24,808 nucleotides of DNA from positions 1 through 24,808 of the IMG/VR virus record IMGVR_UViG_3300025070_000220; one strand, 5' to 3'. Positions 17,700-22,442 of this stretch are shown one piece after another. Position numbers and translations under genes: made by a program. Every line of letters starts with the position of its first letter. The stretch's first letter is position 1. Origin of the DNA: a virus. Below the pieces are notes generated by a model. That model was given only the letters and a program-made list of their open reading frames with translations, ran no database searches and had not been told where the DNA came from.

Positions 17700-17872
17700 A
17701 TGTAACATTTAATTTATTAGGTGGTGGTGAATTAAATATCCCACCAAGAGCAATCAGTGGTTTCTATAAAGACCAGTTCACCAGTGAAGTTATTGTTGAG
17801 GTTGGTGAAGATGAATACAAAGTCAGGGATTCACTTGATGAAGTTAAATACATATTAGGATTAGCAAGATGA
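17696..17872 (+). CDS. Small beta-rich protein (58 aa), unknown
   Basis: It starts at ATG 17696, overlapping the previous TGA (ATGA), and ends with ATGA at the RecE-like gene start. The sequence opens MNVTFNLLGGGELNIPPRAI, continues TSEVIVEVGEDEYKVRDSLD and ends EVKYILGLAR. Alternating hydrophobic strands and a short C-terminal helix suggest a compact beta fold. It lacks cysteines and membrane segments. Coupling to the exonuclease gene hints at, but does not prove, a role in the same process. Confidence 0.58.
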   Translation: MNVTFNLLGGGELNIPPRAISGFYKDQFTSEVIVEVGEDEYKVRDSLDEVKYILGLAR

Positions 17873-18699
17873 AAATAGAATCACTAAAGAAGTTTGAATC
17901 TAAGCAAAAGGGTCAGGCTCTTATTTATAAAGATATACCTAATCAGGACTATCATGCTGGCGTAGGAGTTAGCTCTAGTTACATCAGAAGGTTTGGTCAG
18001 TCTCAGCTTCATGCTGTTGAGCATAAGCAAGAGGAATCACCAGCATTAAAGTTTGGAACAGCAGCTCATGCTTTATTAGTAGAAGGACAAGAAGCATTTG
18101 ATAAAGAGGTCAGAGTAATTACAGGATCACCTTATACCAAAGCATATAAAGAAGAAAAGGCTGAATATGAAGAAGCTGGTTATATCGTGCTTAAAGAAGA
18201 TGATGCAAAAGTTATACAGGGCATGAAGGACAACATGATCTATGAGGGTAATGCCTATCTAAATGCAAAAGGTAAGATAGCAGAAGCTAGTGTTTACTGG
18301 TATGAAGATGATGTGCTTTGTAAGTGTAGACCTGATTTAATGTGCCCACCTTTAGATGCACCTAATTCAGATAACAAGATTGTGATAGTAGATTATAAAA
18401 CTACACAATCATGCGAACCTCATGCTTTTAATTATTCAGTTAAAAAGTATAGCTACGACTTACAAGCATCATTTTATAGAAGGGGAATGGAGATGGCAGG
18501 ATATGAAGTTACTGATTTCTTATTCATAGCTCAAGAGAAAGTACATCCTTATGCATCTAAAGTATTTAGGATCACTAAAGAACAAATGGATTATGGCTGG
18601 ACTATGATGGAAACTTATTTGGATCAGTATAAAGAATATCAAAAGGGTAAACCTTTAAGTATTTACAATAGTCCTAATGTTGTGGATTTGGTGTTGTAA
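17869..18699 (+). CDS. RecE-like PD-(D/E)XK exonuclease
   Basis: A 276-aa nuclease probably resecting double-stranded ends for phage recombination. The motif order matches the RecB/RecE superfamily: H67 in KFGTAAHALLVEG, E139 in the strand before it (AEASVYW), D156 in RPDLMCP, D175-Y-K177 in IVIVDYKTT, and Q199-x3-Y203 in DLQASFYRRGM, the RecB-type 'QxxxY' signature. The N-terminal YHAGVGVSSSYIRRFGQS block resembles the DUF3799/RecE C-terminal nuclease core. It is far shorter than E. coli RecE and equals just its nuclease domain. No annealing protein of known family follows directly, though the 207-aa SSB-tailed protein further on is a candidate partner. Confidence 0.87.
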   Translation: MKIESLKKFESKQKGQALIYKDIPNQDYHAGVGVSSSYIRRFGQSQLHAVEHKQEESPALKFGTAAHALLVEGQEAFDKEVRVITGSPYTKAYKEEKAEYEEAGYIVLKEDDAKVIQGMKDNMIYEGNAYLNAKGKIAEASVYWYEDDVLCKCRPDLMCPPLDAPNSDNKIVIVDYKTTQSCEPHAFNYSVKKYSYDLQASFYRRGMEMAGYEVTDFLFIAQEKVHPYASKVFRITKEQMDYGWTMMETYLDQYKEYQKGKPLSIYNSPNVVDLVL

Positions 18700-19161: not shown

Positions 19162-19261
19162 GTGGATTCTATATTTTATTGCAGGAATATTTGGATTAGT
19201 ATTTATAGGTGGATTAATAAGTGTATTAGCATTTATATACATGATTAACGAGTTAGATTAA
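19154..19261 (+). CDS. Tiny single-membrane-segment protein (35 aa)
   Basis: MLEWILYFIAGIFGLVFIGG, then LISVLAFIYMINELD: nearly the whole protein is one long hydrophobic, Gly-containing helix with acidic caps. It starts inside the previous gene and ends TAATG with the resolvase-like gene, so it is part of a coupled string. This is the second membrane micro-protein of the early block. There is no lysis gene next to it, so a holin role is unlikely but not excluded. Confidence 0.55.
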   Translation: MLEWILYFIAGIFGLVFIGGLISVLAFIYMINELD

Positions 19262-19695
19262 TGGTAAATGGTAGAAATAAAGGTGCAGCTTTTGAGAGAC
19301 TTATAGTCAACAAGCTCAATACAGTTTTGGAAGAAAAAGGTTTAGAAGAGAGAGTTAAAAGAAATTTGGATCAGTATCAAACTAAAGGCATGGCTGACAT
19401 TTATTTCAGGAACTTTGCGATTGAATGTAAAAGATATAAGAACAATGGCAAGCAAAACATTTACAAGAACGAATGGTGGCAACAAGCAGTAGATAGTGCT
19501 GGTGATAACTTGATACCTATATTGATCTATAAGTTTGATAGAAGAAGCATTATGGCTGTAGTGCCACTATTTTTAATGAACAACTTTGATAAAGCTAATT
19601 GGGAATGCATATATATGTGTCCTTTATCAGATATATGCGAAAGGTTAGATGAAATCATACAAAAGGCAGATGGATTTAAACAGCTACCTGCTTGA
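19261..19695 (+). CDS. Holliday-junction-resolvase-like PD-(D/E)XK nuclease
   Basis: A 144-aa nuclease, likely resolving branched DNA before packaging. The pattern is NKGAAFERLIVNKLN (E12), GMADIYF (D46) and FAIECKRYKN (E55-C-K57). A conserved-looking WWQQAV helix follows, as in phage and archaeal Hjc-type resolvases where an aromatic helix closes the fold. The N-terminal 'N-x-G-x-x-F-E-R' is the common start of this family in phages. It lies between recombination and replication genes. The identity as a PD-(D/E)XK enzyme is strong; junction resolution is inferred from family and context. Confidence 0.78.
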   Translation: MVNGRNKGAAFERLIVNKLNTVLEEKGLEERVKRNLDQYQTKGMADIYFRNFAIECKRYKNNGKQNIYKNEWWQQAVDSAGDNLIPILIYKFDRRSIMAVVPLFLMNNFDKANWECIYMCPLSDICERLDEIIQKADGFKQLPA

Positions 19696-19858: not shown

Positions 19859-19872
19859 CCATAGGAGAGTAT

Positions 19873-20496
19873 ATGGATATATTAGGTGGAATGAGTAGTT
19901 CCAACAGTGAGAGTCAGCAAGTTTATCTTGCTTTTAAAACCATGCAGCAGAAGTTTTTTGCTAATGGTGAAACTCCTCTTGATTTTCAATATCTACAGCT
20001 TGATCCTGCTTCCTTTAAAAGTGGCTGGGGTCGTTATACAAAAGCTGAAGGTTTTGAATATCACTGGGATGATAAATTTGGTGTAGTTAGTTCTAAACCA
20101 GCAGAGGATTTTAAAAGAGCATTTAGTGCTTGGGTATTTCCTCAAGGAGCACAACATGCTTACTTATGGCAAAGATTTACCTACGCAGAAACAAGTGCAT
20201 TTAATAGCCTATTAGCTACATTTTGGAATCAAATGGATACATCATCTGATTCTCTTCCAGTAGTTAAGTTTGAAGGATCAAAACCAATTCAGGTTGGTAT
20301 GGGTAATTCTTCTGAGCTAACTTTTAGCTTTGCTAAATTTGCACCAAGAAGTCCTGAGTTTGTAATACCAAGTTGGTATACAGATCAGGAAGCACCAGTA
20401 GAAGACACATTTAAGAGTCCTAATGATGGTCTTAGCGATAAAGTAGCTGAGATGGTAAGTCAGAATGAATTAACAGATGATGATATACCATTCTGA
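19873..20496 (+). CDS. Putative single-strand DNA-binding protein with SSB-type C-terminal tail
   Basis: A 207-aa protein of no family I recognise that ends in NELTDDDIPF. The last six residues, DDDIPF, equal the end of E. coli SSB, the acidic peptide by which SSB recruits its partners. Before it comes an acidic linker (about residues 174-200: DQEAPVEDTFKSPNDG and on). The body (residues 15-170) is rich in aromatic and basic residues (SGWGRYTKAEGFEYHWDDKF, YLWQRFTYAE, WNQM), as expected of ssDNA-binding surfaces. It has its own AGGAGAG ribosome site and ends TGATG with the primase-helicase, so the two are co-translated. It could equally be a single-strand annealing protein working with the RecE-like nuclease. 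Confidence 0.6.
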   Translation: MDILGGMSSSNSESQQVYLAFKTMQQKFFANGETPLDFQYLQLDPASFKSGWGRYTKAEGFEYHWDDKFGVVSSKPAEDFKRAFSAWVFPQGAQHAYLWQRFTYAETSAFNSLLATFWNQMDTSSDSLPVVKFEGSKPIQVGMGNSSELTFSFAKFAPRSPEFVIPSWYTDQEAPVEDTFKSPNDGLSDKVAEMVSQNELTDDDIPF

Positions 20497-22442
20497 TGCA
20501 ATCAGTAGATTGGCAAAGAATAGCACCTGAAGTTGCAAAGCAATTACTAGGTGAACCTACTAGCACCTCATCTAATGAATTAAGATGGGGTCGCAAGGGT
20601 TCTTTTGTTCTTAACTTAGAAGCAGGAACTTGGTTTGATTTTGAGAATGATACTGGTGGTGGATTAATAGATTTAATCAAACACTTGAATCAAGATGTCA
20701 ATACAGTTTTAAAACAGTTTGGTTATGACTTAGCATTACAATCAAATGACTCCTTATTAAGTGGTTTTTCTCCCCCTAAAAGCAAAACCACAAGTAATGC
20801 TAGGTCATTCTCTAGAGAGCAGATGATTGATCTTTACAAACAAGCAATTGTGAAGGTCAAGTATGCTGATAATTTTATGGTGATGCGATTTCCTGAAGGA
20901 CACTTTATTAAGCAAAAATACGCACCATTTACAGCCAACAATGATCAAACTTGGTCTATGAAGCGACCTGAAGGCTCTCTTCCTATTTATTACACAAATA
21001 AGTACCCTACTAAACCTATTATCATAAATGAAGGTGAGAAGGCTCTAAGGGGCTGTGAAGCGATTTATGAGGGTGATAGCTGTACTTGGCATGGTGGAGT
21101 TAATAGCTGGGAGAAAGCAGATTGGAGTCCTATATTTGGTAGGGAAGTTTGGGTATTTCCTGATAATGATGAAGCTGGTATTAAGTGTGCAAATGACATA
21201 GCTAAGATGCTAAAGAAGAATGGATGTAAAGTAAAAGTAGCACAACCACCTGAAACATTTTATGAAAAAGATGATTTATATGATGCATATACAAGGGGTG
21301 ATTTTAAAGAGTCAAAAGATTTAGAAGAATACATAATTAATTGTACTGAGAAGAAACCTAAAGGTGCTGTTACCTTTACAAGAGCAGATGAGGTGTTAAG
21401 ACAGGTAGATAACCCTGATTGGCTCATAGAAGATGTAGTAGAAAAGGAATCATTGATGTGCATCTTTGGAGCTCCTAAGAGTGGTAAGTCGTTTATTGCT
21501 ATAGCTATGGCAGCTTCTATTGCTAAAGGTGAAAGATTTTATGGCAATAAAGCATACGCTAAACCAGTAATGTATGTATGTGGTGAGGGTCAGAGAGGTG
21601 TTAAAAGAAGATTAGCAGCTTGGCAACAAGGTATGTTTGATCTAAACAACGTACCTTTATATCTATCTGATAGAGCAGTTAGAGTTAATGATCCTGATGA
21701 TTTTAAGATGCTAGAAGATGAGATAGAAGCATTAGTACAAGAAGTAGGTGATATAGGCATGATTGTTATTGATACATTCCAGCGTAACTTTGTAGGTAAT
21801 GAGAATAGTGCAGAAGATGTGGGTAACTTTATTAATAAATTAGATGGACTTATTTCACATTATAAGTGTTGTGTATGTTTAGTGCATCATACTGGTCATG
21901 GCAACTCTACAAGAGGTAGAGGATCAAGTGTAATGGGTGCATCTCTAGATTATGAATTTAAAGTAGAAAGAGATGATCAATTAGTTAATGGTTTTGTTGA
22001 TGAGCAGATGCTTGTATCTTTTGAGCAGACATTAAATAAAGATGGTCAAGGTATGGCTGTTAAAAACTTTATGTTTAAAGAAGTACAAATTATAGGCGAA
22101 GGATTGAATCTTACATCAGGATTTTTAGAAGAAACTGATGTTGAAATAAAAGTCAAAAAGAAAACTGGCTTACCACCTATGCAAAAAAGAACCTCAGATG
22201 CATTAAAAATTGTAGCTATGCAAAAAGATATTGCTTCTCCACAAAGTGTATATTTGCAACCAGCAGATTTAGTAGGTCATGTAAAAAATACTAAGGGTGA
22301 AGACTCAAATGCAAATGACATAAATAAGCATTTAAGTGAATTAAAGAAAAAAGATGCAGTTGTATATGATCCTGATTGGGGTTATCAGCATGAAGATTTT
22401 AAGGATATGCCACCTAATTTTCCTAAAACAAATGATAATTAG
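20496..22442 (+). CDS. Primase-helicase: TOPRIM domain plus RepA-like hexameric helicase
   Basis: A 648-aa replication protein. The N-terminal region (about 28-65, RWGRKGSFVLNLEAGTWFDF then NDTGGGLIDLI) is the primase DNA-recognition type but lacks zinc-binding cysteines. A TOPRIM domain (about 170-285) shows IIINEGEKA (E179) and VWVFPDNDEAGIK (D223, D225). The C-terminal AAA_25 / RepA-like helicase has Walker A GAPKSGKS (325-332), Walker B in MIVIDTFQR (D426) and a VHHTGHG motif at 463-469. It would prime and unwind phage DNA; no polymerase is in the window, so host or unseen phage polymerase is needed. The missing zinc finger may mean that it primes with relaxed sequence choice or only acts as helicase. 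Confidence 0.88.
   Translation: MQSVDWQRIAPEVAKQLLGEPTSTSSNELRWGRKGSFVLNLEAGTWFDFENDTGGGLIDLIKHLNQDVNTVLKQFGYDLALQSNDSLLSGFSPPKSKTTSNARSFSREQMIDLYKQAIVKVKYADNFMVMRFPEGHFIKQKYAPFTANNDQTWSMKRPEGSLPIYYTNKYPTKPIIINEGEKALRGCEAIYEGDSCTWHGGVNSWEKADWSPIFGREVWVFPDNDEAGIKCANDIAKMLKKNGCKVKVAQPPETFYEKDDLYDAYTRGDFKESKDLEEYIINCTEKKPKGAVTFTRADEVLRQVDNPDWLIEDVVEKESLMCIFGAPKSGKSFIAIAMAASIAKGERFYGNKAYAKPVMYVCGEGQRGVKRRLAAWQQGMFDLNNVPLYLSDRAVRVNDPDDFKMLEDEIEALVQEVGDIGMIVIDTFQRNFVGNENSAEDVGNFINKLDGLISHYKCCVCLVHHTGHGNSTRGRGSSVMGASLDYEFKVERDDQLVNGFVDEQMLVSFEQTLNKDGQGMAVKNFMFKEVQIIGEGLNLTSGFLEETDVEIKVKKKTGLPPMQKRTSDALKIVAMQKDIASPQSVYLQPADLVGHVKNTKGEDSNANDINKHLSELKKKDAVVYDPDWGYQHEDFKDMPPNFPKTNDN

Follow-up and report, generated by a model that had tools for sequence, protein, structure and literature searches.

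Gene organization of the locus

The stretch of DNA analysed here (hereafter, the window) is a marine virus record of 24,808 bases (IMG/VR IMGVR_UViG_3300025070_000220; 34% GC), in which capsid and tail genes come first and a replication module follows. The record is a fragment because the capsid open frame (1-1187; 394 aa without a stop) extends beyond its left end; no terminase or portal genes were seen in the window. Within the replication module, the plus strand carries a gene for a PDDEXK exonuclease VIII-like protein (17869-18699; DUF3799, PHROG 412, with a homologue in phage CRP-406), a PDDEXK_15/RusA-like nuclease gene (19261-19695), both recognized by Pfam and PHROG matches, a 207-aa open reading frame (ORF; 19873-20496) and, next to it, a gene for a 648-aa primase-helicase (20496-22442) with Toprim-like and AAA_25 domains identified by Pfam. 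The 207-aa ORF encodes a putative phage single-stranded DNA-binding protein (SSB), for which the exonuclease is a candidate functional partner.

The gene is preceded by a Shine-Dalgarno-like AGGAGAG (19863-19869), the GGAG core of which is preserved in nearly all homologues, and its stop codon TGA (20494-20496) shares one A with the ATG of the primase-helicase, forming a TGATG overlap (20494-20498). In most of the homologues, the two genes overlap in TGATG or TAATG; wherever the sequence extends far enough downstream (83 distinct cases), the next gene encodes an AAA_25 helicase. A RusA-like gene is located upstream in all 47 cases in which that side is visible, and the exonuclease is seen as well in 32 of these. 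The overlap with the primase-helicase is thus present, and the translational coupling named in the first-pass annotation may be its effect.

The 207-aa protein can be divided into four parts. Residues 1-14 (19873-19914) consist of a conserved (M)DILGGM followed by a part rich in S and N, modelled with low confidence. The DILGGM peptide (19873-19893) is invariant in 105 aligned genes, which were chosen by that very peptide, and the model is disordered there; for those homologues that seem to start with GTA or GTT, the real ATG is found one codon earlier, giving the N-terminus MVDILGGM. The core (residues 15-170; 19915-20382) is predicted to be beta-rich with a single helix and encompasses an invariant GW as well as conserved LPVV and G-K motifs. 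Aromatic residues (F, W, Y) account for 31 of 170 positions, and the net charge of the core is -3, unlike that of the slightly positive Gp2.5-like relatives. The linker (residues 171-201; 20383-20475) is acidic, varies among relatives and is modelled with low confidence. The protein ends with ...NELTDDDIPF, where the last six residues (202-207; 20476-20493) make up a tip of the SSB-Ct type. The identity of this tip to that of E. coli SSB, and its location after an acidic linker, had been pointed out from the sequence at the outset and are borne out, with a net charge of -9 over the last 37 residues (171-207).

Conservation of the SSB-type tip

The first scan of IMG/VR yielded 80 relatives of the 207-aa protein, and later scans added more. 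Among 106 distinct homologous genes, the tip is DDDIPF in 81, DEDIPF in 21, EEDIPF in 3 and DDDVPF in one, so that 105 of the 106 end with [DE][DE]DIPF, the exception being DDDVPF, and every close homologue retains the tip. In three homologues (L137, L144 and L185), the linker is wholly different and the tip is preserved. The codons of the tip differ synonymously among homologues (CCA, CCT, CCC or CCG; ATA, ATT or ATC; TTC or TTT), and the relative synonymous entropy is 0.95 for the last six codons compared with a gene mean of 0.69. Because synonymous codons vary freely at the tip, it is the peptide that is conserved, and constraint at the DNA level was rejected as an explanation of the tail. 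On one 65,678-bp contig (IMGVR_UViG_3300050343_000089), two copies of the family gene (L116 and L123) are located about 34 kb apart; the contig may be an assembly artefact in which the genomes of two related phages were fused.

SSB-tip-like ends are present on 18 of the 8,834 ORFs outside the family in the same loci. Those of the 18 that were examined are real genes, namely, a Gp2.5-like SSB that enters the count twice, a different family of about 190 aa and AAA_25 helicases; given this low count and the recognizable identity of the genes, a chance origin of the tail was rejected. The ~190-aa family is found in freshwater relatives (L165:3787-4362, L157:8320-8913, L174:5989-6558 and L175:2628-3251), ends with DDDIPF, DDEIPF or DELPF and has no Pfam match; it appears to be helical and may be another user of the SSB-Ct peptide. 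The AAA_25 primase-helicases, likewise from freshwater relatives, adjoin superfamily members (see below) downstream and end with DDMPF (L172:5606-7966) and DDIPF (L173:5622-7967). Since such tips occur on proteins outside the known SSB families, the tip alone is no proof of ssDNA binding, and we rejected the assignment of SSB function from the tail alone.

These observations bear on an alternative under which the protein does not bind ssDNA, and is instead an adaptor or decoy whose exposed SSB-Ct peptide would attract the host partners of SSB to the phage helicase or tie them up there. The presence of similar tips on other phage proteins, including the AAA_25 helicases and the ~190-aa family that lacks a Pfam match, fits this explanation, as does a net negative core that matches no ssDNA-binding fold. 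Left unexplained are the slot held in common with Gp2.5-type SSBs, the lack of another SSB in 28 records and the existence of superfamily members without any SSB-Ct tip, all described below; we therefore consider the adaptor explanation rather improbable.

A superfamily extending to giant Caulobacter phages

The 207-aa protein has no match in Pfam (including PF00436, the canonical SSB) or PHROGs, in agreement with the original impression that its body does not resemble that of the usual SSB. A sequence search of the PDB produced nothing informative, and tblastn against phages and plasmids gave no match. The scan of bacterial genomes returned a single match, in a 32-kb contig (L150; PAHA01000004.1) of a Flavobacteriaceae MAG, which probably is a phage contig in the bin and is not usable for host assignment.

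More distant relationships were detected at the profile level. UOF80894, encoded in MW202711 directly upstream of a related helicase, shows a weak but colinear alignment to the marine family, and the profile of its own family (27 loci) matches that of the marine family (hhalign 85.7%, E 5.5e-6) and Gurke UTC28352 (hhalign 96%, E 2e-9), the latter being a member of PHROG 9528 (1e-82). A 15-member superfamily profile aligns with the marine family over 145 columns of the core (hhalign 88.5%, E 2.7e-6), compared with 0.3% and 1.6% in the negative comparisons. The freshwater intermediates are needed for the link to phage phiCbK because the direct search of phiCbK with the marine-family profile alone came back empty. 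Independently of the profiles, a Foldseek search of predicted viral proteins matched phiCbK K4JPM6 (E 2.9e-6), the length of which (359 aa) is that of gp119. Judging from these profile and model comparisons, the 207-aa protein belongs to a previously unrecognized phage superfamily that includes gp119 of the giant Caulobacter phage phiCbK.

The basic, RG/RR-rich C-terminal region of the phiCbK-type members is absent from the window protein, which ends acidic and is therefore a relative, not a member, of the PHROG 9528/gp119 subfamily. Homologues that lack the acidic tail, a finding named in advance as one that would count against the first-pass annotation, are thus encountered only at superfamily distance.

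PHROG 9528, phiCbK gp119 (L231:4965-6044) and their relatives are labelled nucleotidyltransferase or polyribonucleotide nucleotidyltransferase in several phage records, with no supporting Pfam domain. Taken at face value, these PHROGs and GenBank labels would make the entire superfamily one of nucleotidyltransferases. Six distant members that were scanned contain no such Pfam domain, a conserved acidic catalytic pattern is not seen in the alignment inspected, and the labels given to a single family conflict (nucleotidyltransferase, polymerase III alpha subunit, peptidoglycan synthetase, hypothetical). This identity is very improbable, and the label on PHROG 9528 is probably a propagated misannotation.

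Structure prediction produced two AlphaFold2 models with mean pLDDT of 70 and 77; in the second, the blocks of the core are mostly at 76-93, and the tail is of low confidence. The modelled strands span residues 18-22, 27-30, 34-36, 40-43, 49-56, 60-65, 81-90 and 97-101, followed by a helix (104-123) and two long strands (127-141 and 144-158). The strand-helix-strand order of the model is compatible with an OB fold. Neither model has a significant Foldseek match in the PDB, so that an OB fold is not claimed.

A genomic slot shared with Gp2.5 and DUF2815 SSBs

The closest cultured relative found for the window is CRP-406, with a common gene order and distant homology (15 window ORFs match). In both CRP-406 and CRP-822, the slot of the 207-aa gene is occupied by an annotated ssDNA-binding protein: CRP406_4, which is Gp2.5-like (PHROG 112, 5e-16) and ends with DDEIPF, and CRP822_8, which ends with DDALPF. 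No match of the 207-aa protein to the Gp2.5/DUF2815 body was detected (PHROG 112, PF10991, PF21265; hhalign 0.3%), and remote homology to these SSBs was rejected for lack of profile similarity. Thus, as far as sequence comparison goes, the slot and the tip are retained between the window and CRP-406/CRP-822 while the body is unrelated.

The slot typical of Gp2.5-type SSBs, within the replication module and beside an exonuclease and a primase/helicase or polymerase, is the one in which the 207-aa gene resides. Comparable surroundings are found for distant members of the superfamily: in phiCbK, Mwe-JY26, Lacusarx, DSS3P8, L02 and Gurke, the gene is located between those for a nuclease-like protein of about 350-380 aa and a RecD/Dda-like helicase, in some cases with small genes in between; none of the five upstream proteins scanned has a Pfam match, and the nuclease reading is our own. 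In ctNMl277, a DUF2800/PDDEXK gene is directly upstream of the superfamily member, and in Nostoc phage JY18, DUF2800 is upstream with two small genes intervening. The gene that follows DUF2800 in three phages of the DUF2800 type (SAL_R1, Vibrio 1.037.O and Erwinia SNUABM_08) is annotated as Gp2.5-like or as DUF2815, the latter being an established SSB family (PMC5686142), and two other phages of this type encode in that position, before the polymerase, an unannotated protein of similar size. The two superfamily members found near DUF2800 are thus in or close to the place that SSBs of the Gp2.5/DUF2815 type take up in other phages.

The 28 superfamily-bearing records (the window record, 10 relatives of 31-35 kb and 17 others) gave no match to PF00436 or PHROG 112, a result that covers recognizable SSBs only, in records many of which may be fragments. 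The same searches detected PHROG 112 in CRP-406 and PF00436 in a MAG and in control genomes. The authors of the phiCbK study reported no detectable SSB in that phage (PMC3556154), which carries the superfamily member gp119. Among the CRP-822-type phages, an SSB is reported chiefly from subgroups II and III, and a low-GC subgroup V may infect SAR86 (PMC12629253); the window probably lies near this low-GC branch.

The same genomic context raises the possibility that the protein functions mainly in single-strand annealing and recombination, together with the exonuclease VIII-like nuclease, as RecT does with RecE, the tip then recruiting host repair proteins. The exonuclease indeed lies upstream in the module, the slot protein of the relatives falls in the 'Gp2.5-like ssDNA binding and annealing' group, and neither RecT (PF03837) nor ERF (PF04404) matched the 207-aa protein or anything in the window record or its relatives. 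However, the tight coupling is with the primase-helicase rather than with the exonuclease, and the protein shows no profile similarity to Gp2.5. A primarily recombinational role thus seems unlikely.

A putative SSB with a host-type tip

Considered together, the slot, the lack of another recognizable SSB and the superfamily relationship suggest that the 207-aa protein is the SSB of this phage, one whose sequence is related neither to canonical SSB nor to Gp2.5 and that is equipped with a host-type tip. We assign to this interpretation, in which ssDNA binding is deduced from context, a probability of roughly 0.72; the net charge of the core, the lack of a PDB fold match, the SSB-type tips on other proteins and the basic tails of the distant members count against it. 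The proposal that the gene represents a distinct phage family for ssDNA binding or annealing draws good support from its slot, its neighbours and the lack of another recognizable SSB; structure prediction gave a beta-rich model that has no significant match in the PDB.

If this is the phage SSB, its aromatic-rich core would coat the ssDNA generated by the phage helicase and exonuclease, and the acidic linker, predicted to be flexible, would hold the tip clear of the core. The SSB-Ct hexapeptide of E. coli SSB docks into DnaG, Pol III chi, PriA and ExoI (PMC5872125). The phage tip might likewise dock into the SSB-Ct pockets of host proteins such as Pol III chi, DnaG, PriA, RecO or ExoI, and perhaps into one on the phage primase-helicase; the host replisome would in this way be brought to the DNA of a phage for which the searches revealed no polymerase. 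The start/stop overlap would couple synthesis of the protein to that of the helicase, and the protein may also help to anneal strands resected by the adjoining exonuclease, in the manner of T7 Gp2.5. Use of the host SSB-interaction network is plausible because the tip is an exact SSB-Ct and no polymerase of the three families searched for was found.

Tip type and polymerase

Family A, B and C polymerases (PF00476, PF00136 and PF07733) were not detected in 11 marine records (the window and 10 relatives), nor was PF00476 in 9 freshwater MW202711-type records; the members in both sets have acidic ends with F or FG. The 8 phiCbK-type records, in which the protein has a basic or RG-rich end (with an acidic or neutral last residue in two), all have PF00476 matches, the one in Nostoc JY18 being below the curated cut-off and annotated as DNA polymerase. 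Thus, a family-A polymerase accompanies 0 of the 20 acidic-tip records and all 8 basic-tail records, an association that is confounded because the records essentially represent two clades. It is tempting to speculate that a superfamily of SSBs with a novel sequence, spanning small marine and freshwater phages and giant Caulobacter phages, switches its tip with the replisome, an SSB-Ct accompanying reliance on the polymerase of the host, and an RG-rich basic end accompanying a T7-like polymerase encoded by the phage; we regard this generalization as tentative and somewhat doubtful, and the link between tip type and polymerase ownership is directly testable.

Should the SSB assignment hold, a gene of no catalogued family from a marine phage, and the newly recognized superfamily to which it leads, would account for the SSB that phiCbK-like phages were reported to lack, would probably do the same for CRP-822-type phages that fall outside subgroups II and III, and would correct a misleading nucleotidyltransferase label. 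A single lineage of phages combines this slot and tip with two different bodies that share no sequence relationship, a clean example of a docking peptide and its genomic location outlasting the DNA-binding body.

Comparison with known systems

The Gp2.5/DUF2815 (Enc34-type) SSBs, such as CRP406_4 and CRP822_8, resemble the 207-aa protein in genomic slot, size and the acidic C-terminal tail, and differ from it in the body, where sequence and profile similarity are lacking. In the model of the 207-aa protein, the helix is placed between strands 97-101 and 127-141, whereas the capping helix of T7-type SSBs is placed differently (PMC5686142). The PHROG 9528 family (phiCbK gp119, Gurke UTC28352) is related at the superfamily level by profile and predicted structure and is likewise encoded near nuclease-like and helicase genes, but its members have long RG/RR-rich basic tails without the SSB-Ct tip, in phages that encode a family-A polymerase. 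With canonical bacterial SSB (PF00436, E. coli SSB), the protein shares the identical C-terminal hexapeptide after an acidic linker (PMC5872125) on a body that is unrelated in sequence. The SSB of phage HK620, which we compare by description only and which differs in being an E. coli-like tetrameric SSB, provides the phage precedent for a partner-recruiting six-residue tail: its last six residues (NDYPPF) recruit Sak4, as demonstrated by deletion (PMC5928155).
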